Shown here one piece after another: positions 28,163 to 51,189 of a stretch of 51,387 bases of DNA (position 1 is the first letter of the stretch; each line of letters begins with the position of its first letter). The stretch spans positions 1 to 51,387 of the forward strand of contig CASTSB010000009.1 in NCBI GenBank assembly GCA_949451605.1, written 5' to 3'. The translations under genes and the position numbers were made by a program. The notes beneath the pieces were generated by a model that ran no database searches, was not told the DNA's origin, and was given only the letters and a program-made list of their open reading frames with translations. The stretch is from an uncultured Bacilli bacterium. Its GTDB lineage: Bacteria > Bacillota_I > Bacilli_A > RF39 > UBA660.

Positions 28163-28181
28163 ATGTAGCCTATTTTTTTAC
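28147..28181 (+). terminator. Terminator of trpS
   Basis: AAATAGACTAC and GTAGCCTATTT form a stem with one internal mismatch and a five-base loop, followed by seven T. It overlaps the trpS stop and reaches the end of the convergent surface-protein gene. Confidence 0.75.
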
Positions 28182-32704: not shown

Positions 32705-33964
32705 CTATCTAATTATATATGGATCTTCTTCTGTTCCAGTTCCTTTACTAATTAAGGTATTAGCATCCATAGTAATAACTGGTCTTATTCTTAGATATTC
32801 ACTAGTAATACTAGCTTTTACTACTCCTCCTACAACTCTATAGGCTGTAGAATCATTTTCTGAATTTGAAGTACCTAGCCAATAAGAGTTACCGTCTGCT
32901 AAATAGTTATAATTTTGACATGCAGCTGAAGATGGAGTATTGCATGAAGGATCAATACTCGCATTCATATAATCACTAACTGTAAGTAGACCTATATTAC
33001 TTGAAATAGTTTCGCTACACTCAATAGAATTATCATGAATTGTATCATTTGGTTTCATTTTACCAACGCACATATCAAATTTAGTAAGATGTGCTTTATC
33101 CTTTTGACTAAGCATATAATATTCATCATCTTTTTCGGTAGTTTTATAAATTTGATCTAATTGTTCTTTTATTCTACTAGATGAGTAATTGTTAACTCCT
33201 GATGTATAACCTAAGGTGTTATTATATCTATCATCAAATGGATAATTAGATCCTTTTGTTTTATTTAATATAAGTGTAATTGTTTTATCTCCATTTACTT
33301 TAACAATTCTCCAAGTTTCTCCATCTAACTTAATATAATTGTTTACATTCTCTCCTCTAAACACATAGGAGTCATTTAATAAATATAGACCATAACCACT
33401 ACCCACTAAATTTTCATCACTTGCAATAACAGATGATAAAAGTTTAGTAGAATATTTATCACCACAAGATAAGAATGGTGTGTATATATATTCATTGCCT
33501 ACTTTTTTAACTTGTACTTTTCCTGTACATGATGTATTCTCTCCTAAGTATTCTGGAAGAGTTTTCATCTTTTCTGCAGCTATTAAATTAGCTACTTCAA
33601 TTTCTACTACTTGAGTCTCATCTATTGGTAGTGAAGATTTATTATCTTGGAAGTAACTTTTGGCTGCATCAGACATTATTTGTTCAACTTGTTCGTATGA
33701 TTTTGCACCGCCATTTACTTTAGATACTAGGAATAATACTATTAATAATAATGCCATACCTACAGCAATAACTATCATTAATTTTATTAGTTTCTTTTTT
33801 ACATCATCATCTTTTTTATTGTTACTTGAATTTTCATTTTCATTATTATTAGAATTAAAGTCTAAATTTTCATCTTCGTACTCGTCAATGCCACCAATTT
33901 CATCATCTTCTTTAGATATATCTGTTTTAATTCCATTAACTTTTTGTGTTACATCATAATCCAT
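32705..33964 (-). CDS. Pilin-like surface protein of the secretion locus with long acidic cytoplasmic head
   Basis: This 419-residue protein has a hydrophilic acidic N-terminus (about 1-55), one membrane span (about 59-82) and an extracellular region. The first extracellular part (AAKSYFQDNKSSLP, then C-x-G-x-V-x-V and a second Cys) resembles the head of the prepilin at 17112-18842. The second part (about 210-419) contains GETWRIVKVNGDKTITLIL, SYWLGTSNSE and LRIRPVITMD, and its end matches the protein at 16236-17093. It is the last gene of the operon, with AAGGAGG before the ATG. I infer a surface or tip component of the machine; the function is unproven. Confidence 0.65.
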   Translation of the reverse strand: MDYDVTQKVNGIKTDISKEDDEIGGIDEYEDENLDFNSNNNENENSSNNKKDDDVKKKLIKLMIVIAVGMALLLIVLFLVSKVNGGAKSYEQVEQIMSDAAKSYFQDNKSSLPIDETQVVEIEVANLIAAEKMKTLPEYLGENTSCTGKVQVKKVGNEYIYTPFLSCGDKYSTKLLSSVIASDENLVGSGYGLYLLNDSYVFRGENVNNYIKLDGETWRIVKVNGDKTITLILNKTKGSNYPFDDRYNNTLGYTSGVNNYSSSRIKEQLDQIYKTTEKDDEYYMLSQKDKAHLTKFDMCVGKMKPNDTIHDNSIECSETISSNIGLLTVSDYMNASIDPSCNTPSSAACQNYNYLADGNSYWLGTSNSENDSTAYRVVGGVVKASITSEYLRIRPVITMDANTLISKGTGTEEDPYIIR

Positions 33965-33981: not shown

Positions 33982-36177
33982 TTAATTATCGAAGAAGTCA
34001 TCAAAGAAATCATCATCGTCTAATTCATCGTTTAAATTAATGTTTGTTTTATTATAGTCTGACATTTCAGGAATTGCTTCAATCTTTGGTTCTGGATTTA
34101 TAGTTTTTATATTTGAATTAAGCGAGGCATTTTCTTGCTTTTTCTGTTCTTCAGCTTCTTTTTCTTTTCTTTCCTCTTCTTCAAGTTCAGCAATCTTAGC
34201 ATCAATTTTTTTAACTAATTCATCAACATCAAAACCTAAATCGTCATCTTCTTCATCTTTTGAAGATTCTTGAACAGGATTATTAAATTCCTTGTTAGCT
34301 TCATTTGATGTTCTAGCAAAATTTCCATATCCTTTATGTGATAAGAAATCATTAAAATCTTCATCTGGGACTTTATTAAATGGAACTACTCTTGGTGCTG
34401 ACTCTTCTTCATTTAATGCTACAGTTTTTGTACTTTCTTCTTCATCTACAGCATTCATCATTTCTAGAAGCTTTCTTTTCTTTTCACCTTTTACAAATTC
34501 TTTTATATCAAAAGTATGAACTTCTCTTTTTGGACGTGTAGGATATTTAGAAGGTGGATATTTCTTTCCCCAATCTAATTTGAAATATGGAGTAAACTTA
34601 GTTTTAAAAGGTAATTTTCTCATTCTCATTATAATAACTTCAAATTGTTTCATTCTTTGTAGATCAGAAACAGTTACTAAAGGAGTTGAAGCTGTCTTAT
34701 CATCCTTTTTAGATTTTACCTCTCCACACATTTTAGAAATTTCTTCTAAAGCTTTTAATTCAGTAGTAATTAAATAAATTGTATTACCACAGTTACCTCT
34801 GATTGTCTCTGCTTCTTCTTTTCCATATACTGCATCAAGTTGAGCAAAGTTTTGAATAATCATAGTAAATCTTATTCTTCTTGAACGTGCTGCAGTTATC
34901 ATAGTTGTAACGTCTTTTAAAGGTGGCATATTAGCAAACTCATCTAGTAAGAAATTTGTTCTAACTGGTAGTTTTCCACCATGCTTTTGCGCTGTTGCAA
35001 TTAAAGTTTCATAAACTTGTTTTAAGAAAATTGTAACTAACGAATGGTAAGTTTTCTTTTCATCTTGAATTATTATAAAAACAGCTGTTGGTCTTTCTCC
35101 AATAGATGAAAGATCAATATCACTATGAGATAACATCTCACTTAAATTATCACGAGATGAAAATAATTTAACTTTTTGTTTAAATACAGATAAAATACTT
35201 CCTTTTGTTTCAGATGGAGCCATAATTGTACTTGATGCATTGATTGATGCAGCACTTGATGGATCTTTAGCTGCAAAGTATTCTTTGATATAAGTTGAAC
35301 CACCAAATTTATCTTCACCTACTGTTGTAGCAAGGGAAATACTATTAATATTTATTTCTTCTTCTTTAGCATCTTCAAACAATCCTAAGGCAACTCCAGA
35401 GAAGTAATCAGCAGAAGTTTTTTCCCAAAATGGATCTTGATTTTTATTAGATTCATCATACAAAATATTTAAAGCTAAGTCATCTAATAACTCTATTGCT
35501 TTATCTTGATTTCCACTTTTGTACATTTGATAAGGTAAGGTCATTGGATTCCATGCATTACCATTTTGTGGATCACGGAAATTTAAAATTAGAATTTGGT
35601 AACCTTTAGCACGAAGCATGTTACCAGTCTTTTCATAAATTTCACCCTTAGGGTCTGTTATAATCATTGATTCTCTTGCTTTTGCTAAAGAGTGAACTTG
35701 AGGTAGGATTACAGTTTGAGTTTTACCTGAACCAGTTGCTCCTATTACTAAAGAATGGAATTCAGAGTTATCAACCCACATTTCCTTATCATTTAAAATT
35801 AATGGAATACCTGCGGCTTTAGATCTTGGATCAGTTATTTTAACTTGTTCTAATTCTGGCTTTATTTCTTTTTCTTTAGCCCATCTTGAATAACCTTTAT
35901 CTTTCTTTTCTGTTGTTATTCCAAAGCCTTTTTCTCTTTCAAAAAAGTATGAGCCAACACTTACGAAAAGTCCTCCTAAGCAGAAAAAATAAAGTAATAG
36001 TGTATCAAATAGATATTCACTACTAAATGCAGGAAATGGATTAAGTCCAGATAGTGTTCCAGTTTGAGCAAATGTTGATAAATTAACAATTGCAATTGCA
36101 ACGATATAAAGTAGAAAAACGGCAAATATTATAAATATTGTCAAATCATCTTTATCTACGCGAAATTTAAATTTCAT
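33982..36177 (-). CDS. Type IV coupling protein, VirD4/TraG family
   Basis: This 731-residue ATPase would select substrates and feed them to the type IV channel. Two membrane spans (about 12-34 and 56-78) precede the motor domain. Walker A is GATGSGKT (146-153), followed by IITDPKGEIYEKTG, and Walker B is FLLDEFANMP (409-418) with ARSRRIRFTMIIQNFAQLD after it. The C-terminal 170 residues are a charged low-complexity tail ending in ELDDDDFFDDFFDN, an unusual acidic end. No relaxase gene is present in the window, so the substrate is unknown. GGAAG precedes the ATG. Confidence 0.93.
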   Translation of the reverse strand: MKFKFRVDKDDLTIFIIFAVFLLYIVAIAIVNLSTFAQTGTLSGLNPFPAFSSEYLFDTLLLYFFCLGGLFVSVGSYFFEREKGFGITTEKKDKGYSRWAKEKEIKPELEQVKITDPRSKAAGIPLILNDKEMWVDNSEFHSLVIGATGSGKTQTVILPQVHSLAKARESMIITDPKGEIYEKTGNMLRAKGYQILILNFRDPQNGNAWNPMTLPYQMYKSGNQDKAIELLDDLALNILYDESNKNQDPFWEKTSADYFSGVALGLFEDAKEEEININSISLATTVGEDKFGGSTYIKEYFAAKDPSSAASINASSTIMAPSETKGSILSVFKQKVKLFSSRDNLSEMLSHSDIDLSSIGERPTAVFIIIQDEKKTYHSLVTIFLKQVYETLIATAQKHGGKLPVRTNFLLDEFANMPPLKDVTTMITAARSRRIRFTMIIQNFAQLDAVYGKEEAETIRGNCGNTIYLITTELKALEEISKMCGEVKSKKDDKTASTPLVTVSDLQRMKQFEVIIMRMRKLPFKTKFTPYFKLDWGKKYPPSKYPTRPKREVHTFDIKEFVKGEKKRKLLEMMNAVDEEESTKTVALNEEESAPRVVPFNKVPDEDFNDFLSHKGYGNFARTSNEANKEFNNPVQESSKDEEDDDLGFDVDELVKKIDAKIAELEEEERKEKEAEEQKKQENASLNSNIKTINPEPKIEAIPEMSDYNKTNINLNDELDDDDFFDDFFDN

Positions 36178-36232: not shown

Positions 36233-37012
36233 TTATTGGTTTGAAATTAGTATTTTAAAGTCATTATCAATAAATTTATATAAAATATTGATTGGTTGTT
36301 CCGTTGAATATTTTGCACATGTTAAAAGTATTTCATAATCACCATCATCATCAACATCTATTATAGAATTAATGTAAGGTTTGGTTCCGTTTGTACCTTC
36401 ATATTTTTCTATTGATTTATACAAATTGTATATCTTATTATTTTTTACAACAAATACAAAAGAGAAAACTTGGCTTGGTTCAAAGTCGATTGGAAAAACA
36501 TTACTTACTATATAAATGTCTTCTACTTGTCCATCATTATCTAAGTCAACTTCTGTATGAGTATTAACTGTAAGTTCTGTAGAAGAAGTTATATCATTTT
36601 TATTAAAGACATCTTCTACATAATTGTAATTTTCTATATCTTTTACTTCGAAGCTTTTTGTTTTTATATCATAATTTGAGTTTATACCAAGAAAGTTTTC
36701 AGTATAGTTTTGAGCTACTTTATTATCATCAAATAAGTACCATTTATCATCATGCCATACTAAATAATCATCTTTATATTCGTTATCTAAAAAAACTTTG
36801 AATTTTTTCCAATTATATTTTTCTATACTTGACTCTAATTTTAGATTAACCCATCTATTATTGGAATATTCCCAAGTAGTACCATCGCCTACTAGAATAG
36901 TAGCTTCTTTTTTTCTGTTTTCAATAGAGTCTTTTCCGATTAACGTATACATTAGTACAAAAAATACTACTAAAATTATGAGTAAAACAATATATCTTTT
37001 ATTATTTTTCAT
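36233..37012 (-). CDS. Membrane-anchored extracellular protein with Asp-rich calcium-type loops
   Basis: This 259-residue protein has an N-terminal membrane span (about 7-25) and an extracellular domain with two D-x-D-x-D-G motifs (DLDNDGQVED and DVDDDGDYEI) like those in FG-GAP or dockerin-type calcium loops. Aromatic-rich strands (WEYSNNRWVNL, WHDDKWYLFDD) precede them. No family is recognised. It lies between virD4 and the wall hydrolase in the operon, with AGGTGA before the ATG, so it is probably an accessory surface part of the secretion machine. Confidence 0.6.
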   Translation of the reverse strand: MKNNKRYIVLLIILVVFFVLMYTLIGKDSIENRKKEATILVGDGTTWEYSNNRWVNLKLESSIEKYNWKKFKVFLDNEYKDDYLVWHDDKWYLFDDNKVAQNYTENFLGINSNYDIKTKSFEVKDIENYNYVEDVFNKNDITSSTELTVNTHTEVDLDNDGQVEDIYIVSNVFPIDFEPSQVFSFVFVVKNNKIYNLYKSIEKYEGTNGTKPYINSIIDVDDDGDYEILLTCAKYSTEQPINILYKFIDNDFKILISNQ

Positions 37013-37024
37013 TTAATCACCTAT

Positions 37025-39385
37025 TTAATTTGCTTTGAAATATGCATAAGTACTTGTATTAACCCAGTTATATCTAGACCACATATCAGTTGATGAACTA
37101 CCTGGATCCATCATTGTTACATTTTGTCCAGAAGTACCTGCTACTGCTACCCAGTGCTGACCTGTTCTTCCTTTAACTTCAGCTACTACATAGTAACCTT
37201 GACTTAATAAATTATTAAGAGTATTTATTTTTTGTTCTCTTGAGTAGCCTGATACTCCAATTTTATTTACATATCTAAAGTTTGGAGCTACTGTACTTAC
37301 AGATCCCCATACGAAGTTTGCACCAATAAAGCCTCCATGTTTATTTAAGTATTCTACAAATGTTCCAGGATTAAATTCTCCTTGGATATTAGTTTGAACT
37401 CCACTACGAGCTATTTGCATAGCAATTGATGTAGCAAGACATCCAGCTGACTTAATTGTATGACTACTTCTACCTAATGGTACACTTATCCATGGACCTT
37501 CATATTGTTTCCATGATGCAAAGTCTCCTGTAACAGCTGAGGAACAGTTCTCATTTGAAGTATTACAGCTCATTGACTCGATATCACTTGCTCCTAGATT
37601 TCTTGTAGAGTTATATACTTGTAATAAAATTTGTTTATAATTGTAACCTTCATTAGCTAATTTTGTAAAAATATTTTGTTCTGTTGATGTATATCCTGAA
37701 TATATTACGTATCCTTGGGAATTTACTAGGACTTGTCCCATTGTTTCATTTGCTATACTTCTAAGTCTTGAGTCTGTTGCAAGTGGGGGCTTTTGATATC
37801 CTGTATAAGATAGTCCACTATGGACTTGTCCCCATTGTCCATCATTAGATGAACATCCTTTGTCAGGATCACAGTATACTTGGTCTTGGGTACTTGCTGC
37901 TGCTTGTAAAACCCAGGTACCATTTTCTTCTTTTAGAGTTCGCCATCCTCCCATATCAGTAGAACGAGCTAAGATATAGCTTCTTGCTGCTACCATTTGG
38001 GCTTTAATTGCTTCCTCAGGAGCTCCAGAACCTATTTCTGCATATGCTACTCCTAAGATATATTTTTCAAAGTCTACTAATTCTTCACCTTCTAATGGTT
38101 GTCCAAATGTTCCACCGTAGTTGTGACCATTGCCAGAACCAGTTTGCATAAGTCTAACTTTCAAATTATTTATATTTAGTTCTTTGGTAATATTTCCTTT
38201 TCCATATATATAGAAACCTTTAATATTGTAAGAGCAACTTCCTATAGCTGAACATGAAGATGTAGGTCTATAGCCTATTAAATCATAATATCTATTGATA
38301 TAATCATAAATTTCTTCAATCATATATTTTCTTTCTTCTTCAGAAGAGTTTTTTACATATTTAGGGAAGATACTATTTATTAAATTATTTTGGTAATAAT
38401 CAGCATTATAACTTGTTGAATCTTTTTCAAACATTGCATCAGCTATTTCTCTAATATTACCTTTATTCATACTATTATAAGTAATTTTTTCATTATGTTC
38501 ATGAATTATATGATAAGTAGCAACAACTAGTAATGCATCAACATTTTTTCCATCTTTTAAGAAGTCTTCTTTTACTTCATTAATTCGCTTATAAAATTCT
38601 GCTGACTCTTTACTTGATGCTTCAAAGTAGACACCACCAGTTTCTCCACCACTTACTTGACTTGCTCCAAAGGCATCTTCAAAGTCAGATGTTGATCCTG
38701 TAAGAGCAGCAAATACTGCTAGAAGTATTAATAAGATTAATATAATTGGTCCTCCAGCCATAAGGGCTATTTTTACTGGCATACTAATTTTTATTGTTCC
38801 GTCTAGAAGTTTTCCATCTTGTTTTTCTTCATTATTTTGATCTTGATTCTCGTCTTTTTCTTTGTCTTTCTTTTTCTTACCACCAAGCATACCATCCATT
38901 ACACCATCAGATAATGAAGAAGAGGAATCTCCTCCTATATTAGAAGAGCTTCCTCCTGCATTTGTGGCACCTTGTGCTGCACCTGCTCCTGCAGAAGCAC
39001 CAGTAGAAGTTGCGCCTGCGCCAGTTCCAGCACCTGCTCCTCCACCCATTCCGCCTGCTATATCTATAGCTTTATCGGCTGTATCAACTAGTCCTGAATC
39101 ATCAAGCTTTTTAGCAGCTTTTCCCATTCCTGGAATTTTATTTAAGGCTTCTCCACCTTTATTTAGAATTTCATCTCCTGCTTTAGTTTGAGCGGCAAGG
39201 TCAACTGCCTTTCCTCCTACAGGTCCACCAAAGTAAGTAGCGGCACCTTTAGCTGCAGTTTTGGCAACTTTTTTTGAAGATTCTTGCTCTTCAGCTTTTT
39301 TATCTTGATGCATTTCAGCAACAGTCTTATTGTATTCTTCTTTATTAGATTCACTATTTTGTCTATTGCTTTTGTATGATGCCAC
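37025..39385 (-). CDS. Membrane-anchored wall hydrolase: SpoIID-like plus C39-like peptidase
   Basis: This protein of about 786 residues has a Gly/Ala/Ser-rich cytoplasmic N-terminus (to about 200), one membrane span (about 204-232), a helical region, a SpoIID-like domain (about 410-600) with EKYILGVAYAEIGSGAPEEA and KAQMVAARSYILARS, and a C-terminal papain-like domain of C39 type (about 620-786) with SAGCLATSIAM, QHWVAVAG and MMDPGSSS. SpoIID cuts peptidoglycan glycan strands; C39-like domains cut peptides. Together they could open the wall for the channel, the role of VirB1-type enzymes. GTG at 39385 is preferred because AGGTGAG lies just upstream of it. Confidence 0.82.
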   Translation of the reverse strand: MASYKSNRQNSESNKEEYNKTVAEMHQDKKAEEQESSKKVAKTAAKGAATYFGGPVGGKAVDLAAQTKAGDEILNKGGEALNKIPGMGKAAKKLDDSGLVDTADKAIDIAGGMGGGAGAGTGAGATSTGASAGAGAAQGATNAGGSSSNIGGDSSSSLSDGVMDGMLGGKKKKDKEKDENQDQNNEEKQDGKLLDGTIKISMPVKIALMAGGPIILILLILLAVFAALTGSTSDFEDAFGASQVSGGETGGVYFEASSKESAEFYKRINEVKEDFLKDGKNVDALLVVATYHIIHEHNEKITYNSMNKGNIREIADAMFEKDSTSYNADYYQNNLINSIFPKYVKNSSEEERKYMIEEIYDYINRYYDLIGYRPTSSCSAIGSCSYNIKGFYIYGKGNITKELNINNLKVRLMQTGSGNGHNYGGTFGQPLEGEELVDFEKYILGVAYAEIGSGAPEEAIKAQMVAARSYILARSTDMGGWRTLKEENGTWVLQAAASTQDQVYCDPDKGCSSNDGQWGQVHSGLSYTGYQKPPLATDSRLRSIANETMGQVLVNSQGYVIYSGYTSTEQNIFTKLANEGYNYKQILLQVYNSTRNLGASDIESMSCNTSNENCSSAVTGDFASWKQYEGPWISVPLGRSSHTIKSAGCLATSIAMQIARSGVQTNIQGEFNPGTFVEYLNKHGGFIGANFVWGSVSTVAPNFRYVNKIGVSGYSREQKINTLNNLLSQGYYVVAEVKGRTGQHWVAVAGTSGQNVTMMDPGSSSTDMWSRYNWVNTSTYAYFKAN

Positions 39386-39407
39386 TTTTCTCACCTACTT
39401 CTTTTTA

Positions 39408-41198
39408 TTAGAATCCTCCACCAGATCCGAAAGAATCTAATTCTTCTTTTGTTACTGCAACATTTATACGCATACGTCTATTACCACAGACGAATAATGC
39501 TTCTCCTTGTGAGTAACGTTTTATACTTTCTTTTTCGCTTTCATTTAAATCTATTAAAAGTGCTAAATCTTCTGTTGCTTGTTTTCTAAGTCCCATAATT
39601 AAATAATATGAAGCATTATCAAAGATTGCTTTTCCTTGAGTAATAACTTGTGGATTAGAAAAATCACTTGGTTGTTGAGTAATAATAATTGTTCCTGTGT
39701 TATATTTACGAGCACGTCTTTGTACTTGAGCTAAGAAGTCTGCTCCTTGTACATTATTATCTCCTAATAATACATGTGCTTCATCTACCATAAGTACTGT
39801 ATCAACACTAGAGTCTAGACATAATCCCCAAGCATATTTTAAAACATTGAAGAATAATGCATTTCTAACTGTAGAGTCACTATTCATTAACTCTTTAATG
39901 TTAAATACCATAAAGTCACTGTCTTTTCTAAGTGTTGTGTGACCATCAAAATAGAATTTTAATTCTTTAGTAATTGGTCTTACTTTTAATTCAAGACGTT
40001 CTAGAATATCACGTTCCTGTGTTCTATCTGTTATTGACATTAATCTTCCTCGTATAGTAGCGTAAACATCACTAAATGTTGGATAGTCGTTTGATGTAAA
40101 GTTTACAAAGTTAGATGTATAGTCAATACCAAATCTTTTATATGTATCTTGAACTATTTCACTAAACATATTTAAAACGTCTTCTTCAATAGATGGATCA
40201 TAATATTTCATAAATCCTCTTAAGAATTGAAGAGTTCTTGTGATTACTGAATGTCCAAGCCCTTGAGCTATTTCTTCTTCATCAGCATCGATTACTATTT
40301 CAAGTGGGTTAATAAGTCCAAATTCTCCACCTTTACCAATATCTACTGTATCTCCTCCAAAAGCATTAGTAATTTCTCTAAATTCATCTTCTGGATCGAT
40401 AATAACAATTTGGCAGCCATTTCTAATGTGTGTTCTAAGCATTAATTTAGCAGCTGTTGATTTTCCTGAACCTGATGTACCAAGAATAATCATATTGGCA
40501 TTATTTCTATTATTTTCTTTTTGTACTTTATATAAGAATTGATTAAATAAAATAACTCCTCCTGAAAAATCAACTCCAAGTAATGTCGATAATCCTGGAT
40601 CTTTAATACTATCAAAAATAAAAGGATACATTGCAGCTATTGTTACTGAAGGAATTGGAGTTCCTATTCTTTGTTCTACATCTTGAGGTGGGAAAATAGG
40701 TAAAATAGATTTTAATACCTTTTCTTGTTCAAAACGTAAAGAGATAGCACGTAATTCCATAGCATCTAAATAGTTTTTAACGTTTACTTTTTTTAATTCT
40801 AATTCTTCTTTAGTATCTGCTGTTATCATAATGTGCATTTGGAAATCAAAAATTCTAGCCTGACTACCTGCAAGCATAGAAGTAAAATATTCCAAACTTT
40901 CAGCATCTTGTCTAATTCTTTCTTTTAGAGTTTGATCTCTTTCATTACGATATTTTTCTTTTAAATCGGCAACTTGCTTATTTAACATTTTTGACATTTC
41001 TTGGAATGGTACTGGTATATGTTTTACTACTACTTTAATTCCAGACATGTTTGTTAAGGATGCTAAATATCCTGGCATTATATATTTTGGATAAGAAACA
41101 ACCGTCATAATTGTTGCATATTTATCACTTATAAAGAAATCACTTGGTGAAAAGTGTAATCCTTTAGGTGCCAATTGGCTTCTAATACCTATACTCAT
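39408..41198 (-). CDS. Type IV secretion ATPase VirB4, motor part
   Basis: This 596-residue VirB4/TraE-like ATPase energises assembly and transfer. Residues 1-235 hold the middle VirB4 domain, with the typical PFIFDSIKDPGLSTLLGVD stretch before the motor. Walker A is GTSGSGKS (240-247) and Walker B is TVLMVDEAH (466-474), followed by the VQRRARKYNTGTIIITQQPS arginine-finger region. The usual N-terminal domain is missing from this gene and is encoded by the gene just upstream, which it overlaps by four bases (ATGA). The pair therefore looks like a split VirB4. Confidence 0.93.
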   Translation of the reverse strand: MSIGIRSQLAPKGLHFSPSDFFISDKYATIMTVVSYPKYIMPGYLASLTNMSGIKVVVKHIPVPFQEMSKMLNKQVADLKEKYRNERDQTLKERIRQDAESLEYFTSMLAGSQARIFDFQMHIMITADTKEELELKKVNVKNYLDAMELRAISLRFEQEKVLKSILPIFPPQDVEQRIGTPIPSVTIAAMYPFIFDSIKDPGLSTLLGVDFSGGVILFNQFLYKVQKENNRNNANMIILGTSGSGKSTAAKLMLRTHIRNGCQIVIIDPEDEFREITNAFGGDTVDIGKGGEFGLINPLEIVIDADEEEIAQGLGHSVITRTLQFLRGFMKYYDPSIEEDVLNMFSEIVQDTYKRFGIDYTSNFVNFTSNDYPTFSDVYATIRGRLMSITDRTQERDILERLELKVRPITKELKFYFDGHTTLRKDSDFMVFNIKELMNSDSTVRNALFFNVLKYAWGLCLDSSVDTVLMVDEAHVLLGDNNVQGADFLAQVQRRARKYNTGTIIITQQPSDFSNPQVITQGKAIFDNASYYLIMGLRKQATEDLALLIDLNESEKESIKRYSQGEALFVCGNRRMRINVAVTKEELDSFGSGGGF

Positions 41199-41797
41199 CC
41201 TGCCATCACCGTCCCAAACTCAGTTGATGCTCCTCCATTTAAGAAGTTTTCCATTACAACTCGTAAGTCACCATTAGTAACTTGTGATGCATTTAATCCA
41301 CATTGGGCAAGTGCATTTATCATGAATCTTACTCTTTTTTGTAATAAGTCAGGATCTTTTGCTTTAAATAAGAAGAAGTATTCTGTATCAACTATATTAT
41401 TATTAATAAAACTTTGTCCTTTATTTATATCTTGCATGATAAGTTTTCTAATAGCAGGAGATGGTGTGTCATTGAATAGTAATTGAAGTTGTGACATATA
41501 AACTGATATATCTACTGGTCTATCTGCTACTACTAACCAAAATTCAAAGTCTATTTGATTATAAAAATTCTTTAGACTTATTAATATATTATCTTGTAGT
41601 GAAGGGTCCAAGATAAAGATGTTTCTTGGAGCTATCTTCACACCTGTTACTTTTTCATTACTTGTTGTAATGATCATTCCATTTTGTATTCCTTTTAGTG
41701 GTAACCAATCTTCTGTAAATCCACTACCTATTTTTTTTGCCAACTTTATAACACCATCCTCTCCAACGGTAAGTTTGCCTGCTAGTAACAAACTCAT
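41195..41797 (-). CDS. VirB4 N-terminal domain as a separate protein
   Basis: This protein of up to 200 residues resembles the N-terminal region of VirB4/TraC-type ATPases: EDWLPLKGIQNGMIIT, then VTGVKIAPRNIFILDPS and the FWLVVADRPVDISVYMSQL segment. It has no Walker motifs. It probably binds the next gene's product to form one VirB4 unit. The first ATG at 41797 overlaps the PrgI-like gene by 74 bases and has no ribosome-binding site; a later TTG at 41743 is possible, so the true start is uncertain. Its stop overlaps the next start (ATGA), implying coupled translation. Confidence 0.75.
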   Translation of the reverse strand: MSLLLAGKLTVGEDGVIKLAKKIGSGFTEDWLPLKGIQNGMIITTSNEKVTGVKIAPRNIFILDPSLQDNILISLKNFYNQIDFEFWLVVADRPVDISVYMSQLQLLFNDTPSPAIRKLIMQDINKGQSFINNNIVDTEYFFLFKAKDPDLLQKRVRFMINALAQCGLNASQVTNGDLRVVMENFLNGGASTEFGTVMAG

Positions 41798-42038
41798 ATA
41801 ATTCGATTATTATATTTAACATATTATGGTAATAAGGTACAGGCATTACTAAGAATGCACATACTATTGCCGGAGAAAGTATCAGTATTGTTACAAATGT
41901 TGATGACAAAGGCATAAACGCTAGTAACGTTACTGAGATTAAAACACCAGTAGAAAACAATATTAGGTCAAATGGTCTAAAGATTCCTAGAATCAATTTA
42001 CCATTTTTTGTATTAGCTGGTATTAAATAATTATTCAT
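41724..42038 (-). CDS. PrgI/VirB3-like inner-membrane protein
   Basis: This 104-residue protein has two adjacent hydrophobic segments (about 28-46 and 49-67) after the N-terminal YLIPANTKNGKLILGIFRPF block, which matches the PrgI family of Gram-positive type IV systems. It ends YRWRGWCYKVGKKNR. PrgI/VirB3 proteins associate with VirB4 at the membrane, and the gene lies directly before the VirB4 pair as expected. Confidence 0.82.
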   Translation of the reverse strand: MNNYLIPANTKNGKLILGIFRPFDLILFSTGVLISVTLLAFMPLSSTFVTILILSPAIVCAFLVMPVPYYHNMLNIIIELYEFVTSRQTYRWRGWCYKVGKKNR

Positions 42039-42065: not shown

Positions 42066-43988
42066 CTAAGGTCTAGGACCTGGAGGTGGTCCTGGAGGTG
42101 GTCCTCCACCTGGTCTTCCTCCATTGTTCATTGGTCCCATATTTGTTGTTGCTCCTGGTGGAGTAAAGTCTGGTAAGTTAGTAGATCCAAGTGAGTTTTG
42201 AGGTGTTGTAGAAGATGTTGCTTCATATGTTTGCCCATTTCTTCTTTGACTTCCATCTCTCATACTTTGTCTGTTTGGTATTACAGCTCTATTTTCTCTA
42301 TTCTCACTAAATTTCGCTTCATCAGTACGAGATGCCAAATATTTTTTTTGCATTCCCTTCATGTCTTCTAAATCCTTAGTAGCTCCTTCAAATTTATCCT
42401 TAGCCTCAAGCTCTCTAACATACATACCCTTTCGTAATGTATCCCATGAATCTTGTGTTAAATTTCCATTTGAATCTCTAGATAATGCTCCAAGTCCAAG
42501 TTCATTTGCTATATTATCTTGTTCTGTAGCACTCATATGTCCATCCATAAATCTGTTATAGTTATCCTGCCAGAAATCCTTGTCTTGTTCTAAACCAGGA
42601 AGACTTTCTTTTAAACCTTTTACTCTAGCATTATCAATTCCCATAGCTTCAAGATGTTTTCTTCCACGTGTCATCATTCTACCTGTTGCATTATTGTCGC
42701 CAGTTACTGCTTTTGCTACTTGATCTCTACCAAAATTATAAGCAGTTCCAGGATTCATTCCAGGTTTTCCTGAAATATATGCATCATTATTAGCTTTAAT
42801 TGAGTCATACATACTTTCTCTAACTTCTCTAGCATTACCACCTTGATAAACAGCTCCTGCACCAGCAAGTATTGCTCCAAGTCCAACATTAGATAATGAA
42901 TTTTTTAAGCCTAAAGCATCTTTAATAAACTTTGGCGCTTGCTTTGCAAATATGAAAAGTCCAATACAAATTATTACAAATGTTATAAATCCTGTAATAC
43001 CTGAACCTGTATTTATTATTAAGCCATGAGCCATAATATCTTGTATTAAGAAAATAACGAAGTAAACGATTGCTAAACGAAGAAATAAATCAAGATAAGT
43101 AGAAGTTAACATTTGTATCCAATTAGCAAAAGCGCCTTTTTTCTCTTGATTAGGATCAAGATAAGCAATGATTGGAATTGGTGCAATTAGTCTTAATATT
43201 GATAATTTTATAGCACGGATTGCTACATCTGCACAGAAACCTATTAATATAATTGTAAATACTGCAGCAGTTATTGCTCCAATAAGTGGAATGTAGGCAA
43301 AGACATATTTCTCATCTCCCCATCCACCACATTTTTGATTTACTAAATCAAAGAATACCGTTCCAGCATCTGTTGTAGAATTATAAGTATTAATTATATC
43401 CTGTTTATCCCCACACATATAATCATTACTACCAGAAGACTTCATATTAATTCTTACAAATCCTTTTAATAGAGTTGCAGTAAAGTTTTTTCCACTTTCT
43501 TTTAAATCATTAACACTTGTAGAAGATTCTGTTCCAAGAACTAATTTTCCAATAGTATTTTCACTTAAAAGTCTATACTGTAAGGAATATAGCGTTCCAA
43601 AAAGTAATCCATTATTATTAATTTGAACTTCATACTCAGTTCTTGCATTAGGAATATTTACTGGTACTAAAAGTGTAAGCATAGCAAGACACATTACTAC
43701 TCTTGTAATTATGCTCGAAAAGCCATTGTTTTTATCACTGATTTTATCAGGATTAACAATAGCTTGAAGTACAGATATGCTTAATTTAAACACCATGAAT
43801 ACACCGATTATTAATTGCATTCTAGAAAAGAAAGCATTTATCGTTTCATTTGAAAATAATTGTGCGTTAGATACACTGAAGAATATTTCATATATCCAAC
43901 CTAGTAATAAGAAGAAAGCCCAATCAATAAAAGCAAATATGGATCTAATAATATCCATTATTGTGCCTGCTTTTCCATTTTGGCTCAT
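42066..43988 (-). CDS. VirB6/TrbL-like polytopic channel protein
   Basis: This 640-residue protein has about seven membrane spans in its first 380 residues (for example AFFLLLGWIYEIFFSV and AAVFTIILIGFCADVAIRAI). A long hydrophilic cytoplasmic tail follows, ending in a Gly/Pro-rich stretch (GGGPPPGPPPGPRP). The topology and the position before the PrgI and VirB4 genes match VirB6/TrbL, the core of the translocation channel in Gram-positive systems. ATG at 43988 is chosen because AGAGGTG lies six bases upstream. Confidence 0.83.
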   Translation of the reverse strand: MSQNGKAGTIMDIIRSIFAFIDWAFFLLLGWIYEIFFSVSNAQLFSNETINAFFSRMQLIIGVFMVFKLSISVLQAIVNPDKISDKNNGFSSIITRVVMCLAMLTLLVPVNIPNARTEYEVQINNNGLLFGTLYSLQYRLLSENTIGKLVLGTESSTSVNDLKESGKNFTATLLKGFVRINMKSSGSNDYMCGDKQDIINTYNSTTDAGTVFFDLVNQKCGGWGDEKYVFAYIPLIGAITAAVFTIILIGFCADVAIRAIKLSILRLIAPIPIIAYLDPNQEKKGAFANWIQMLTSTYLDLFLRLAIVYFVIFLIQDIMAHGLIINTGSGITGFITFVIICIGLFIFAKQAPKFIKDALGLKNSLSNVGLGAILAGAGAVYQGGNAREVRESMYDSIKANNDAYISGKPGMNPGTAYNFGRDQVAKAVTGDNNATGRMMTRGRKHLEAMGIDNARVKGLKESLPGLEQDKDFWQDNYNRFMDGHMSATEQDNIANELGLGALSRDSNGNLTQDSWDTLRKGMYVRELEAKDKFEGATKDLEDMKGMQKKYLASRTDEAKFSENRENRAVIPNRQSMRDGSQRRNGQTYEATSSTTPQNSLGSTNLPDFTPPGATTNMGPMNNGGRPGGGPPPGPPPGPRP

Positions 43989-44015
43989 ATTACTCACCTC
44001 TTTTTTATCTATTTA

Positions 44016-45062
44016 TTATTGTAGTCCGCATAAAGGATCTGACATAAATCCGAATATTTCTAATAAAAGTTCTACTAATTCTGGAATAAAGAATAATAGA
44101 AGAGCTAGAACTAATCTTGTCATTAACTTTTTATAAGCTTTTTGCATTGATTCATCATCACTAGCAAGTAAGGCTTTAATAAAATCAATAGAGCTCATAA
44201 CTAAAACAATCATTGGTCCAAGTATTTTTAGATAATCTAATAATTTTTTTAGTAACCATGCTGGAGAATTAGGATTTGCAGGATTTCCTAATATAGAATT
44301 ACAATCGTCATCTGCTCCAAAAGACGCATTATAGTTTAATGCTTTTTCTCCTTGACCATCATTTTTACTTAAATCATTTTTACAATACTTTTTATTACTT
44401 GTTAAATAATATTTATAATTTCCTTTTTCATAAGAAACACATCTATATATATTAATTAAATTATCACTATTAGTAAATGATTTTTTTATTAAATTTTCTT
44501 CTATTGATATGTCTGAATTTTTATCTAATTTAATATTCTCATTTATATTTATAAATTTATTACCATCTATTGACCATTCATATGTATTGTCACTAAGTTT
44601 TCTAACAGCTGGAATAAAATAACTTTTATCTTTATATTTTCCAATACTAGTAGTAATTTTTGTATCAACTACATTTAATTTGTTATTATAAGAATTTAAC
44701 TTAGTGCAAGTACCATTACATAGTTCATGATCAATGCTTCCAACAAATACTGTTGTAAACATTTCATTTTCTTCTATTGTAAGTGTTGGACAAACTACTT
44801 TATTATTAGAAGTTTTTGAAGATGAAATAAATTTAGATTTAAAATCTTCACTATTATACCATTCTTTATTATTAAATTTCTTACCATTTGTGAATGGTAA
44901 TCTAACATCTTTCTTAGTTAAATTATAAATTAATTCAATATCATTATAGTTATATTTACACTCTACTAAATCATTATTTTTTTCTAAAGCAAATGTATCA
45001 ATTGGATTAAATAAAATAATTGTTAGTAATAAAATTATAGTTGTTATTAATTTGTTTTTCAT
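44016..45062 (-). CDS. Secreted protein with C-terminal VirB2/TrbC-like pilin domain
   Basis: This 348-residue protein has a signal peptide (about 1-25, KLITTIILLLTIILFNP), an extracellular domain of about 245 residues with six or more cysteines, and a C-terminal part (about 275-340) with hydrophobic segments. That part (DFIKALLASDDESMQKAYKK to RLVLALLLFFIPELVELLL) matches the free VirB2-like protein at 45149-45484. It is thus a two-domain pilin variant, possibly a minor or tip subunit. The start at 45062 has GGAGTGG upstream, and the gene begins the second transcription unit of the locus. Confidence 0.72.
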   Translation of the reverse strand: MKNKLITTIILLLTIILFNPIDTFALEKNNDLVECKYNYNDIELIYNLTKKDVRLPFTNGKKFNNKEWYNSEDFKSKFISSSKTSNNKVVCPTLTIEENEMFTTVFVGSIDHELCNGTCTKLNSYNNKLNVVDTKITTSIGKYKDKSYFIPAVRKLSDNTYEWSIDGNKFININENIKLDKNSDISIEENLIKKSFTNSDNLINIYRCVSYEKGNYKYYLTSNKKYCKNDLSKNDGQGEKALNYNASFGADDDCNSILGNPANPNSPAWLLKKLLDYLKILGPMIVLVMSSIDFIKALLASDDESMQKAYKKLMTRLVLALLLFFIPELVELLLEIFGFMSDPLCGLQ

Positions 45063-45081
45063 AAAAGACCACTCCAGATAC

Positions 45082-45090
45082 ATTATAACA
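45082..45090 (-). promoter_or_regulatory. Extended -10 promoter of the type IV secretion operon
   Basis: TGTTATAAT on the minus strand is an extended -10 (TGn-TATAAT) lying after the upstream terminator. No good -35 is visible. It would start the unit running from 45062 to 32705. Confidence 0.6.
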
Positions 45091-45148: not shown

Positions 45149-45484
45149 TTATTTTGCTTTTTCCCAGCAAGTACTCCATCCAGTTGTATTTCCATCTTCT
45201 GCACCTTTTGCAACGATGTCCATAACTAATGAAACGATTGTTACTACAAAGAATATTAATGCAGCATAGATACATCTTTTAATAAGTCTACTTTGTGCAG
45301 CTTTAATTTCTTTATCATCACTTGCAATAACTGCTTTTCCTAAATCAATAATTCCAAAGATTAGTAATACAATTGGGATAATAATTTGTACGATTGGGTA
45401 TACTCCTTGTCTTAGTACTCTAACTATAGGAAGTAAGCCACCGCATCCATCATTGATATTTCCAATTTGAATTAAATTTGACAT
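45149..45484 (-). CDS. VirB2/TrbC-like pilin
   Basis: This 111-residue protein has hydrophobic segments at about 30-50 and 70-93 separated by a short loop (KAVIASDDKEIKAAQSRLIK). It has two cysteines near its N-terminus, one in the middle and one near its C-terminus. The two-span design fits VirB2-type pilins that polymerise into the extracellular filament or channel. It has its own consensus promoter (45509-45537), GGAGAG site and terminator, as expected for a highly expressed subunit. No conventional cleavable signal peptide is seen. Confidence 0.78.
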   Translation of the reverse strand: MSNLIQIGNINDGCGGLLPIVRVLRQGVYPIVQIIIPIVLLIFGIIDLGKAVIASDDKEIKAAQSRLIKRCIYAALIFFVVTIVSLVMDIVAKGAEDGNTTGWSTCWEKAK

Positions 45485-45541: not shown

Positions 45542-46573
45542 TTACTTTCTAAATAAGCCAAAAATTCTATTTCCATTATTTGAAGATTGTCCATCTTTTA
45601 ATAATCTTAATTTTTTAGCAAAATCTAGAATAACTTCATTTCTTTTACGATCATTTAAGGGTGGCATGTTATATAAGATATTTAAATTTGACTCATATTC
45701 GAATTCTGATACTTCTTTTTGAGTTAATAAGCTTTTATTTAATATTACTTTTTTATCTTTTAAAGTGCTTATTATAACTTTATTTCTTCTCATTAAATTA
45801 TTTAACTTTATAACACTTGGCTCTATCAAATAGATTATTGTTGTACAAAGATTTTGTACCTTACAATCATTTAAATCTATAAGTATAATATCTTTTGAGT
45901 TAAGTCTTGATATTAACTCTTTTACTTCATTTGAAGTAGTTGAAATCATACTTTTATCCCCAAACGATAAAAAATCTGTTTTATCAATTTCTAATGCAAC
46001 TACTTTATCTTTATATAAATATGTTAATTCTTTTTTTAACATATAGATAAGACTAGTTGCTCCAGCGTTTAAAGTTATATTTTGAAAACCTACTATTATT
46101 TGCTCATTTTCTATTTTACTAACATTTCCTACATCAATAGATGGTGATATAGCTTCTTCAGGAGAAATATTATTCTTTCTCATTTCTGTTTCAGCCATTT
46201 GTTTAATATTTTCTACATCCTTTAATGTATTGGATTTGGTAAGTAAATATTTAACTCCTTCTACATTAGTTGTAAAGTTATAGATTCCAACATTAATTAA
46301 ACGAGATAAAAATCCAGATGTACATAGATTACTTCCTTCTTTAAAATAAAAGATAATCTTATCTGGATTTATTTTATCAGCTATTGTCTTGTATGTAAGA
46401 GGTACATCATAATCTCTTAGAGCTGTAACATCAATAATCATTTTATTAAAGAAGAAGTTTTGAAACATTGTAACTATTTCAGTAGCATCATATGTTCCAC
46501 TAATACTTTTAATAATGTCTATATCTAAATTTTGCAAATCATTTTGCTGTTGGTTTAAGATAAGCACATTCAT
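45542..46573 (-). CDS. TadZ/CpaE-like ParA-family protein with degenerate P-loop
   Basis: This 343-residue protein has a receiver-like N-terminal half (about 1-115) and a ParA/MinD-like C-terminal half (about 155-310). That is the layout of TadZ/CpaE, which places the pilus machine in the cell. The expected KGGxGKT loop reads GFQNITLNAGATSLIYML (residues 162-179) and lacks the catalytic lysine, so ATP hydrolysis is unlikely. The later strand IILIDLNDC fits the Walker B position. It is the last gene of the Tad module and ends just before the VirB2-like pilin promoter. Confidence 0.75.
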   Translation of the reverse strand: MNVLILNQQQNDLQNLDIDIIKSISGTYDATEIVTMFQNFFFNKMIIDVTALRDYDVPLTYKTIADKINPDKIIFYFKEGSNLCTSGFLSRLINVGIYNFTTNVEGVKYLLTKSNTLKDVENIKQMAETEMRKNNISPEEAISPSIDVGNVSKIENEQIIVGFQNITLNAGATSLIYMLKKELTYLYKDKVVALEIDKTDFLSFGDKSMISTTSNEVKELISRLNSKDIILIDLNDCKVQNLCTTIIYLIEPSVIKLNNLMRRNKVIISTLKDKKVILNKSLLTQKEVSEFEYESNLNILYNMPPLNDRKRNEVILDFAKKLRLLKDGQSSNNGNRIFGLFRK

Positions 46574-49049: not shown

Positions 49050-50372
49050 CTAATTTGTTTGAATATTTATATTAGGGACTTGAACTGGCGATGGTTGTTG
49101 AACAGTTTGAACTGGTTGAGGAACTGGTCTTACAACAGGTTGTGGTTGTTGAGTTGAGGCTGGCATTGCAGGTCTAACTGATTGTTGAACTGCTGGTCTT
49201 GAGGCTTGTTGTACTTGTCTATTTACAGTTCCTTGTTGTACTGTTTGACTTTGACTTGTCATATTTTGATAATCCTTTTTAGCCTGTTCCATATTATTTT
49301 CTTTGTATGACATTTCTTTTGGAAGGCTTTTTATAACATTTCCTAAGTTAATATTTTGATTTTCTAAGTATTCAATTAAATGATCACTAGGCCTTACCAT
49401 TTCTTCTTTTCCCATTTGTTTTCTATAAATTGTATGGGCAACTGGTTCATTATTGTCGTCTACATAGAATTCTGTTACTTCATCAACTTCACGATGAAAC
49501 TTTCCATATTCTTTACTGTAATATGCTTTTATATGAATTCCTAATTGGACATATCTATAAATTGTATTTAAGAATTGATTAACATCTAAATCTGTTTCCA
49601 TCAAACTGTATAAACGATAAGGTATTGCGGATGCTTTATCAGCATGGATTGTTGATAAGATGTTGTGTCCTGATGAAATAGAGTTACGTACAGCAGAAAC
49701 TGCTTCTGCACTACGAACTTCTGATAGTAGAATCCATTTTGGATTTTGACGCATACAAGTAACAAGTACATCTGTATAACTTGCGACATTGTTTGTCTTC
49801 ATAGCAACGATATCTCTTTGTGGAAATATCTTATCCAAGTGCAATTCTAGTGTATCTTCAATAGTTATTATTTTTTCGTTATTTTTGGTATGTGATGCTA
49901 GATATTTAACAAACTCAGTTTTACCTGAACCAGTTTCTCCGGCAACCATTATATTGCAGTGACCTTCAACGCATTTAATTAGAAAGTCATGTATATTTTC
50001 GGTAAAATAATCTTCTTTTAATAGTTTGTCTTTTTCTAGTCTTATCTTAGCTGGAGTTTTACGTATAACTAATGCTATACCGTTTGTTGCGATTGATTGA
50101 TGAACAAAGTTCATACGTAACTCAGCTGATTCTGCATCTAGAAAAGGTTTAGCATTATTAAATGTTGTTCCCATAACGTTTGAGCATTGAAATGCTAATT
50201 TTTCTACGAACTCTGTAGTTAGTCCTTCTATTTCTACTCTCATTGAACCTTGTGTTAAGGAACGAATCCAAATTTGACCACCATTGTCATATGAAATATC
50301 TGTTATATCATCATCATCTAACAATTGTCTAAAAGGTCCAAAATCAAGTTTATCAAAAATACTTTCATTCAT
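49050..50372 (-). CDS. TadA/CpaF secretion ATPase with a Pro/Gln-rich tail
   Basis: This 440-residue hexameric ATPase drives Tad pilus assembly. It has Walker A GETGSGKT (145-152), an Asp box around IITIEDTLEL, Walker B ILLSEVR (214-220) and the His box GHNILSTIHA. The core ends near residue 340, earlier than many homologues. The last 70 residues or so are low-complexity, rich in Gln, Pro and Val (QQGTVNRQVQQASRP, PQPVVRPVPQPVQ), which is unusual for a cytoplasmic motor. GGGGTGA precedes the ATG. Confidence 0.93.
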   Translation of the reverse strand: MNESIFDKLDFGPFRQLLDDDDITDISYDNGGQIWIRSLTQGSMRVEIEGLTTEFVEKLAFQCSNVMGTTFNNAKPFLDAESAELRMNFVHQSIATNGIALVIRKTPAKIRLEKDKLLKEDYFTENIHDFLIKCVEGHCNIMVAGETGSGKTEFVKYLASHTKNNEKIITIEDTLELHLDKIFPQRDIVAMKTNNVASYTDVLVTCMRQNPKWILLSEVRSAEAVSAVRNSISSGHNILSTIHADKASAIPYRLYSLMETDLDVNQFLNTIYRYVQLGIHIKAYYSKEYGKFHREVDEVTEFYVDDNNEPVAHTIYRKQMGKEEMVRPSDHLIEYLENQNINLGNVIKSLPKEMSYKENNMEQAKKDYQNMTSQSQTVQQGTVNRQVQQASRPAVQQSVRPAMPASTQQPQPVVRPVPQPVQTVQQPSPVQVPNINIQTN

Positions 50373-50385
50373 TTTTTATCACCCC

Positions 50386-51189
50386 TTAATTTTCAGTCCA
50401 GATTGTTACTCTATTTATCCACTCTTTTAATGCTTCACTTGTTGCTTCTAGTTCTCCTGGTTCTGCCTTCATACTTTCATTTGTTGGTACTGGTATTAAT
50501 TTTGAATCATATGTCCTTAAGTATTCTGCTTTTTTTAGTAATATGTAATATTCTTCTGGAAGAGCAAAGATTACCATGGCTGGAGTTCTTGTCTCATCTG
50601 GGTTTTCAAATACTGGAAGCCCATCTTGATCTCTTACAGCAATTACTTTTACATTTGAAAGCAACTTTCCAAGCATGACTTTATCATCTCTTGATGGGGC
50701 TTGGTCTCCTTCAAGAAGTGTTTCAACCTTTAAATAAATATCGATATAGTTTCCTGGATAAATTGAATTTCCATATGATGATTCTGTTGTTACTGGAAGA
50801 TTATATAAAACATAACCTGACGGATAATCTAAAATAACATTAGCAGGTAAATCATCTTTTTCTACTACAGTTCTTTTGTAAAATAAGCTTCCTTCTGGGA
50901 TAGTAGTATCTGCATTTGAATATTTATCAATGACACTAGCTCTATCATATAATACATCACCTTCTAGCATTGAAGGAGGTACTTCAGTTATTCCTACCAT
51001 ATCTTCAGTTATTTGAATTCCTGAGACAATTTGAGTTTTTGCATATGGAACTTTAACAGGTTTAATTGATGCATTTATTCTCATTCGATAACAAAATAGT
51101 AATATTCCTAAAGATAATATTACTCCTAAAATAGTAACTGTATTTTTATTTACAATTATTTTCTTGAATCCAGCTATTAAATTACCCAT
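50386..51189 (-). CDS. CpaB/RcpC-like pilus assembly protein with SAF domain
   Basis: This 267-residue protein has one N-terminal membrane span (about 17-34) and an extracellular SAF domain (VPYAKTQIVSGIQITEDMVG) followed by the RcpC/CpaB domain (PGNYIDIYLKVET, PAMVIFALPEEYYILLKKAE). In Gram-negatives it supports the secretin; here, with no outer membrane genes seen, it probably stabilises the pilus base at the wall. It opens the Tad operon from a promoter at 51239-51266. A second copy lies just upstream. Confidence 0.85.
   Translation of the reverse strand: MGNLIAGFKKIIVNKNTVTILGVILSLGILLFCYRMRINASIKPVKVPYAKTQIVSGIQITEDMVGITEVPPSMLEGDVLYDRASVIDKYSNADTTIPEGSLFYKRTVVEKDDLPANVILDYPSGYVLYNLPVTTESSYGNSIYPGNYIDIYLKVETLLEGDQAPSRDDKVMLGKLLSNVKVIAVRDQDGLPVFENPDETRTPAMVIFALPEEYYILLKKAEYLRTYDSKLIPVPTNESMKAEPGELEATSEALKEWINRVTIWTEN

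Follow-up and report, generated by a model that had tools for sequence, protein, structure and literature searches.

Background

The closest described counterparts of the protein analysed here are CwlT (ICEBs1), TcpG (pCW3) and OrfA (ICESt3), which combine a lysozyme or SLT domain with an NlpC/P60 or CHAP domain and sit on mobile elements. Two further points of reference are LytB, a presumed stimulator of the amidase LytC, and the leader-peptidase C39 domains of ABC exporters, which are cytosolic. The VirB1-like enzymes of Gram-positive T4SS are believed to breach the wall so that the channel can pass, and the published parts of these systems are equivalents of VirB1, B3, B4, B6 and B8, with pilus proteins not listed (PMC11753425).

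In C. difficile SpoIID the catalytic residue is E101, and this Glu and the first Cys are the residues that matter most (PMC6221140). The protein consists of an alpha-rich hand, which binds the substrate, and a beta-rich arm, and the zinc motif of clostridial SpoIID is yCxdxxHCQ, with two Cys and two His (PMC6934232). SpoIID enzymes act on glycan that a partner has stripped of its peptides (PMC6221140, PMC6934232).

Here we describe a protein in which a SpoIID domain is fused to a C39-like peptidase domain. Like CwlT, TcpG and OrfA, it is predicted to be membrane-associated, it is encoded beside VirB4 and VirD4, and it has one glycan-cutting and one peptide-cutting domain. Unlike them, it pairs SpoIID with C39, belongs to a chromosomal locus without a relaxase and has domains that are swapped between genera. 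It appears to be a VirB1-like wall hydrolase of new domain composition, and the uncommon domain pair is real. Searching the literature (short of many subscription journals), we found no publications on SpoIID in T4SS, on T4SS of RF39 or on a Tad/T4SS hybrid.

Gene content and character of the secretion locus

The window, by which we mean the whole stretch of 51,387 nucleotides from an uncultured Bacilli bacterium of the RF39 lineage, carries a secretion locus on its minus strand (Table 1). In the order of transcription, the locus begins with a CpaB/RcpC-like protein, a VirB11/TadA-type ATPase, two membrane proteins, small pilin-like proteins and a ParA/MinD-fold protein, and both this content and its order seem to be like those of a Tad pilus. 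Unlike a Tad pilus, it is continuous with VirB6-VirB4-VirD4, the ATPase stays under the NCBIfam cut-offs for VirB11 (123 bits) as well as for TadA (105 bits), and TadB and TadC are assigned by position only, T2SSF-type profiles having given no meaningful match to the 269- and 300-aa membrane proteins. Since pilus proteins are missing from the published parts list of Gram-positive T4SS, the Tad-like part of the locus is unusual.

The second part consists of two small or pilin-like membrane proteins, VirB6, a VirB3-like protein, VirB4 (two genes), the SpoIID-C39 protein, the 259-aa protein, VirD4 and the 419-aa protein; downstream of the locus follow housekeeping genes (rhodanese-like, VTT, RmuC and a tRNA synthetase). 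This part resembles the T4SS of Mycoplasma and clostridial ICEs in that VirD4 matches CD1115 above the cut-off and VirB4 matches Mbov_0397 below it. It differs from them in the division of VirB4 into two genes, in its fixed chromosomal place and in that no relaxase was found: there was no PF03432 match in the window's own genome, and the scan of the window proteins turned up no relaxase. A VirB8-like protein was likewise not identified in the locus. As a separate observation, VirB4 is made of two genes (~190 + 596 aa) in every intact family copy that was read (L003-L011, L025-L081), and ICE-type VirB4 copies of the same family are mostly one chain of ~780-840 aa.

Table 1. Features of the secretion locus and of its wall-hydrolase gene
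Feature	Position	Strand	Remarks
419-aa anchored protein	32705..33964	minus	conserved in the close clade
VirD4-like coupling ATPase	33982..36177	minus	CD1115 family, 308 bits (cut-off 250)
259-aa membrane-anchored partner	36233..37012	minus	changes type along with the C39-type slot protein
SpoIID-C39 wall-hydrolase gene	37025..39385	minus	786 codons plus stop from GTG 39385
C39-like papain-fold peptidase domain	37037..37513	minus	residues 628-786; Q630, C652, H747, D763
SpoIID domain	37604..38080	minus	residues 439-597, compact form without the GHGxGMSQ segment
Catalytic Glu E453	38036-38038	minus	within the SpoIID domain
Hydrophobic membrane anchor (predicted)	38699..38782	minus	about residues 205-232; by eye from the sequence; position kept in homologues
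VirB4 ATPase, C-terminal part	39408..41198	minus	596 aa; split from the N-terminal part
VirB4, N-terminal part	41195..41797	minus	200 aa
104-aa membrane protein	41724..42038	minus	putatively VirB3-like, from position and size; profile search without match
VirB6/TrbL-like membrane protein	42066..43997	minus	PF19597, 29.4 bits (cut-off 27)
355-aa protein with T4SS-pilin-like C-terminus	44016..45083	minus	a homologue passes PF18895
111-aa small membrane protein	45149..45484	minus	putatively pilin-like
343-aa protein	45542..46573	minus	C-terminal half of ParA/MinD-type fold (ParF, Z 13.4); putatively TadZ/CpaE-like
Two small proteins, 149 and 65 aa	46603..47265	minus	N-terminal hydrophobic stretch; putatively pseudopilin-like; no clear profile match
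Two membrane proteins, 269 and 300 aa	47322..49033	minus	TadB/TadC by position only
VirB11/TadA-type ATPase	49050..50372	minus	PF00437, 2.9e-29
RcpC/CpaB-like protein	50386..51189	minus	PF16976, 28.8 bits, exactly at the cut-off; TIGR03177, 22 (cut-off 71)

The same gene order was found in other Bacilli MAG loci and in most of the family genomes that were read, and the chromosomal neighbours are conserved in most. For VirB4 we surveyed 296 genomes sampled evenly across the class, 38 of which belong to the host family. It occurs at 63% identity or more in 34 of the 38 family genomes, including the window's own (63-88% in the others), and full-length matches outside the family reach about 34% identity in this sample. 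We conclude that the locus is a fixed chromosomal, relaxase-less hybrid of T4SS and Tad-like genes and is not mobile. A reading as a conjugative element (ICE or plasmid) was rejected because no relaxase was found, the synteny is family-wide and the distribution is not patchy. The results also point to a chromosomal Tad/T4SS hybrid as part of the core equipment of a little-known gut lineage that is uncultured and has reduced genomes.

Architecture of the SpoIID-C39 protein

The gene is placed directly after VirB4 (39408-41797) and ahead of VirD4 (33982-36177), with VirB6 at 42066-43997. The mechanically defined open reading frame spans 37025-39394(-) and has 789 aa, and residues are numbered here from 39394. 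The GTG at 39385 is the better start: the sequence AGGTGA lies just 5' of it, and four of nine aligned homologues share the equivalent start position. Ahead of the outer part we predict a single membrane anchor; the Gly/Ser/Lys-rich stretch on its N-terminal side is presumably cytosolic.

A structure model of residues 234-789 (mean pLDDT 81) recovered both the SpoIID and the papain-like fold. For its N-terminal helical domain (residues ~260-375), the fold search with the whole model returned nothing clear. We aligned the protein with nine homologues from other Bacilli MAGs. E453, C508, C514, Q630, C652 and H747 are invariant, and D763 is present in all nine sequences that reach this point. The catalytic Glu and the Cys-His-Asp set, on which the preliminary description had made its proposal depend, are therefore in place. 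Searches with the whole protein in phage and plasmid collections found nothing, and in a Bacillota-wide sample of 392 genomes the matches are confined to the host family.

The SpoIID domain matches PF08486 in a profile search at 2.1e-11 (44.7 bits, cut-off 23, residues 439-556), as well as TIGR02669 at 1.1e-13, which is under the cut-off of that profile. The sporulation equivalog TIGR02870 scores 37.2 bits, far below its cut-off of 234.75. In the HMMER alignment E453 pairs with E101 of C. difficile SpoIID within a GVVxxEMP-like motif. The fold search of the model gave C. difficile SpoIID (5i1t, Z 13.9, rmsd 2.8 over 153 residues), followed by SleC (Z 12.7) and B. anthracis SpoIID (4rwr, Z 10.4).

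The domain thus shares PF08486, the fold, the catalytic Glu and the spacing of the Cys pair with the SpoIID/LytB proteins (C. difficile and B. anthracis SpoIID, SleC). Unlike them, it is no sporulation equivalog, is fused to a peptidase, is tied to a secretion locus and is without the GHGxGMSQ segment and the zinc His. The GHGxGMSQ segment, which lies near the end of canonical SpoIID, is present in the SpoIID of the host family and in six other slot proteins. Cys508 and Cys514 are kept with the correct spacing (as C140 and C146), the zinc-motif His is absent, and the His beside the second Cys is replaced by Gly513. The shortening of the domain may remove the arm. Since both the first Cys and the catalytic Glu are kept, activity looks likely. 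In the wider family set, 26 of 28 slot SpoIID domains have the catalytic Glu; it is lost in two genomes (G107 and G283; L060 and L077), in which the fused C39 domain retains Gln, Cys and His.

The C39-like domain is found less easily. When the last 168 residues are searched alone, PF13529 (Peptidase_C39_2) matches at 4.9e-5 (24.4 bits, cut-off 24), and this match is absent from the profile search with the whole protein. Given the borderline score, the C39 assignment rests mainly on residues, fold and relatives. The relatives in the slot give stronger C39 profile matches than the window protein, and in the 16 C39 domains found there Gln, Cys and His are always present, with the fourth residue being Asp in 14 and Asn in two. 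In the fold search the C-terminus of the model matched papain-like enzymes, of which the pseudomurein endoisopeptidase PeiR came first (Z 11.4), with others closely behind, and C39 peptidases reached Z ~9.5. Hence the Gln/Cys/His/Asp set and the papain fold are shared with the PF13529 C39 and papain-like wall enzymes; the borderline score, the predicted extracytoplasmic location and the SpoIID fusion set this domain apart from the PF13529 C39 enzymes.

Taken together, these results bear out what had been proposed from the sequence of the window: a SpoIID domain and a C39-like domain are fused in a protein of the secretion locus, a membrane anchor is predicted ahead of both, and a glycan-cutting and a peptide-cutting domain occupy the T4SS wall-hydrolase position instead of the usual pair of lysozyme/SLT and NlpC/CHAP domains.

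Exchange of the cutter domains across the family

By slot we mean the gene that follows VirB4 and precedes the position of the 259-aa protein. It was read in 45 family genomes, over its full length in 44 and with the 5' end missing in one. In all 45 it encodes at least one recognised wall-hydrolase domain. SpoIID is combined with C39, CHAP, M23, M23 + C39, M15, glucosaminidase, NlpC or phosphodiester glycosidase; on the other hand there are slot proteins with M23 + phage-type lysozyme, CHAP + lysozyme, M23 + CHAP, CHAP + Amidase_3 and M23 alone. SpoIID is found in 28 slots (in one of them, that of G023, as a weak match only) and phage-type lysozyme in seven, and no slot holds both (hypergeometric probability 4e-4, with no correction for kinship). 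Such mutual exclusion is expected of domains that do the same job, and suggests that both fill one catalytic role.

When mapped on a tree of VirB4 from 43 genomes, the type of glycan-cutter needs about 14 changes, which is barely below the 15.5 obtained with shuffled labels; the well-supported branches alone require at least six changes for SpoIID and at least five for lysozyme. The C39 type is more clustered (five changes against 12.6 shuffled). Since slot and VirB4 lie on one contig in the tree rows, MAG misassembly may inflate a few cases, not the pattern. The slot is hypervariable: its cutter domains have been repeatedly exchanged for other wall hydrolases, with the rest of the machine remaining constant.

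As a rule, the wall enzyme of a Gram-positive secretion system is regarded as an invariable component, whereas here one slot took varied cutters. Across some 40 genera the glycan-cutters represent three folds or more and the peptide-cutters five or more, which amounts to a natural exchange experiment. It lets one ask which cutter chemistries the machine accepts, and why they change.

A possible source of the window's C39 domain can be named. In genome G008 of the same family, a relaxase-bearing ICE (L045:1291-14601) encodes a C39-domain protein directly 3' of its VirB4; it is 44% identical to the window C39, which makes mobile elements a plausible source of the domain.

The neighbouring 259-aa protein

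A profile of the 259-aa protein found relatives in 17 genomes, including the window's own: all 16 that have a C39 domain in the slot, and G007. In most other genomes its place is taken by a lipobox protein, about 230 aa long and hydrophobic at the C-terminal end. Since the 259-aa type tracks the C39-type slot in this way, slot protein and neighbour travel together, either as a functional pair or merely as parts of the same recombined segment. BLAST clustering joined nearly all proteins at the partner position, probably via signal and anchor segments, and is uninformative about kinship, which is why we took the latter from the profile result alone. The neighbour is a candidate inhibitor, pilot or assembly partner of the slot protein.

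Origin of the SpoIID domain

The preliminary description had also suggested that sporulation machinery was recruited into a secretion system. In this form the suggestion is not supported. The SpoIID/LytB domain family also occurs outside the spore formers: among our control genomes, matches occur in E. coli, Synechococcus, Thermus and Bacteroides. The slot domain is far from the sporulation equivalog, and SpoIID is one of several unrelated glycan-cutters in the slot.

Furthermore, in a tree of the SpoIID core a branch with a support of 57 has all 28 slot domains on the same side, and the division that holds them excludes the canonical SpoIID of the hosts (SH-aLRT 94), although the core is a short one and the tree is poorly resolved, with many open forks. 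On the basis of this tree, with its short alignable core and a support of 57 for the slot branch, we set aside a recent recruitment from the host's own spoIID.

The window's own genome (1.33 Mb) keeps SpoIVA, SpoIIP and five proteins with a transpeptidase domain, from which it follows that the cell is probably walled, with at least remnants of sporulation. No canonical SpoIID was seen in this genome, although SpoIIP and SpoIVA are present. In close relatives the host SpoIID either is without the catalytic Glu or was not found; the orthologues without Glu come from the own genus and a close one (L099:698-1759(-), L100:946-2019(+), L101:808-1824(+)).

Proposed role and alternatives

We consider it likely that the slot protein is a VirB1-like, wall-opening enzyme of a chromosomal, vertically kept T4SS/Tad-like hybrid, and that its SpoIID and C39 domains both cut. 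Its N-terminus would lie in the cytosol, with one anchoring helix and an outer part that carries the two cutters. The C39-like domain (Cys652-His747-Asp763, with Gln630 for the oxyanion) would act on stem peptides or on cross-links. Glu453 of the SpoIID domain would serve to cleave the glycan strand by lytic transglycosylation. That SpoIID needs peptide-stripped glycan offers a reason for fusing a peptide cutter to it on one chain, and may also set the order of the two cuts. Together they might open a local hole in the wall where the machine is built or works, and the anchor would keep them beside the channel. A link to sporulation is not needed to explain such a protein.

The short form of the SpoIID domain, the missing GHGxGMSQ segment and zinc histidines, and the loss of the Glu in two members count against the view that there are two cutters. 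They would suit a protein in which the C39-like domain is the sole enzyme, with a short SpoIID domain that attaches to denuded glycan or, like LytB with LytC, has a stimulating effect on the peptidase. The Gln, Cys and His that the two members without Glu keep in their C39 domains fit this view too; SpoIID has indeed been proposed to stimulate SpoIIP (PMC6934232). We regard this as possible, if unlikely, because the catalytic Glu is present in 26 of the 28 slot SpoIID domains and the swap between SpoIID and phage-type lysozyme speaks for a common catalytic role.

More speculatively, and with little expectation that it will prove right, one may imagine that the family-wide, non-mobile Tad-pilus/T4SS hybrid reaches into other cells, with cutter and neighbour being swapped as a cassette to match or resist the walls of the targets. 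A related idea is that the slot protein itself, or a released part of it, attacks the walls of other cells, so that its diversity follows the targets. The very fast domain exchange (the ~14 changes of glycan-cutter) beside a VirB4 that is 63-88% identical would fit, and so would a neighbouring gene the type of which changes with the cutter, as that of an inhibitor or immunity protein would. On the other hand, the membrane anchor of the slot protein is conserved, there is no sign of a secretion signal or release site, and the neighbour may just ride on the same recombined segment, and we find this attack on other cells doubtful.

It is quite improbable that the C39 domain trims the leaders of pilins or effectors, as the C39 domains of ABC exporters do, instead of cutting peptidoglycan. 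The fold is common to leader peptidases and there are pilin-like genes in the locus, but the window domain is predicted to lie outside and leader peptidases of this kind work in the cytosol; besides, the same slot alternates C39 with M23, CHAP, NlpC, M15 and amidase domains, and the first of the closely ranked papain-like fold matches is a pseudomurein endoisopeptidase. Finally, that the slot protein serves engulfment in sporulation, in a clade without an active SpoIID, is hardly credible: close genomes do keep SpoIIP and SpoIVA with a canonical SpoIID that is missing or Glu-less, but in every genome the gene is part of the T4SS operon, its SpoIID groups apart from the host SpoIID, and enzymes other than SpoIID fill the slot in other family members.

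Further observations

In genome G018, the region upstream of the CpaB gene (L055:12987-19096) encodes an Ig-like surface protein, a sortase-like protein, a 997-aa protein for which the profile search gave no matches, and a DUF5411 protein; these genes probably belong to the same machine. Elsewhere in the window, a 723-aa surface protein (28178-30349(-)) has 13 PARCEL (Liste_lipo_26) repeats, the profiles being named after Listeria and Mycoplasma proteins, and a 576-aa protein (17112-18842(-)) with an N-terminal prepilin methylation motif (PF07963) is possibly the pilin of another system.
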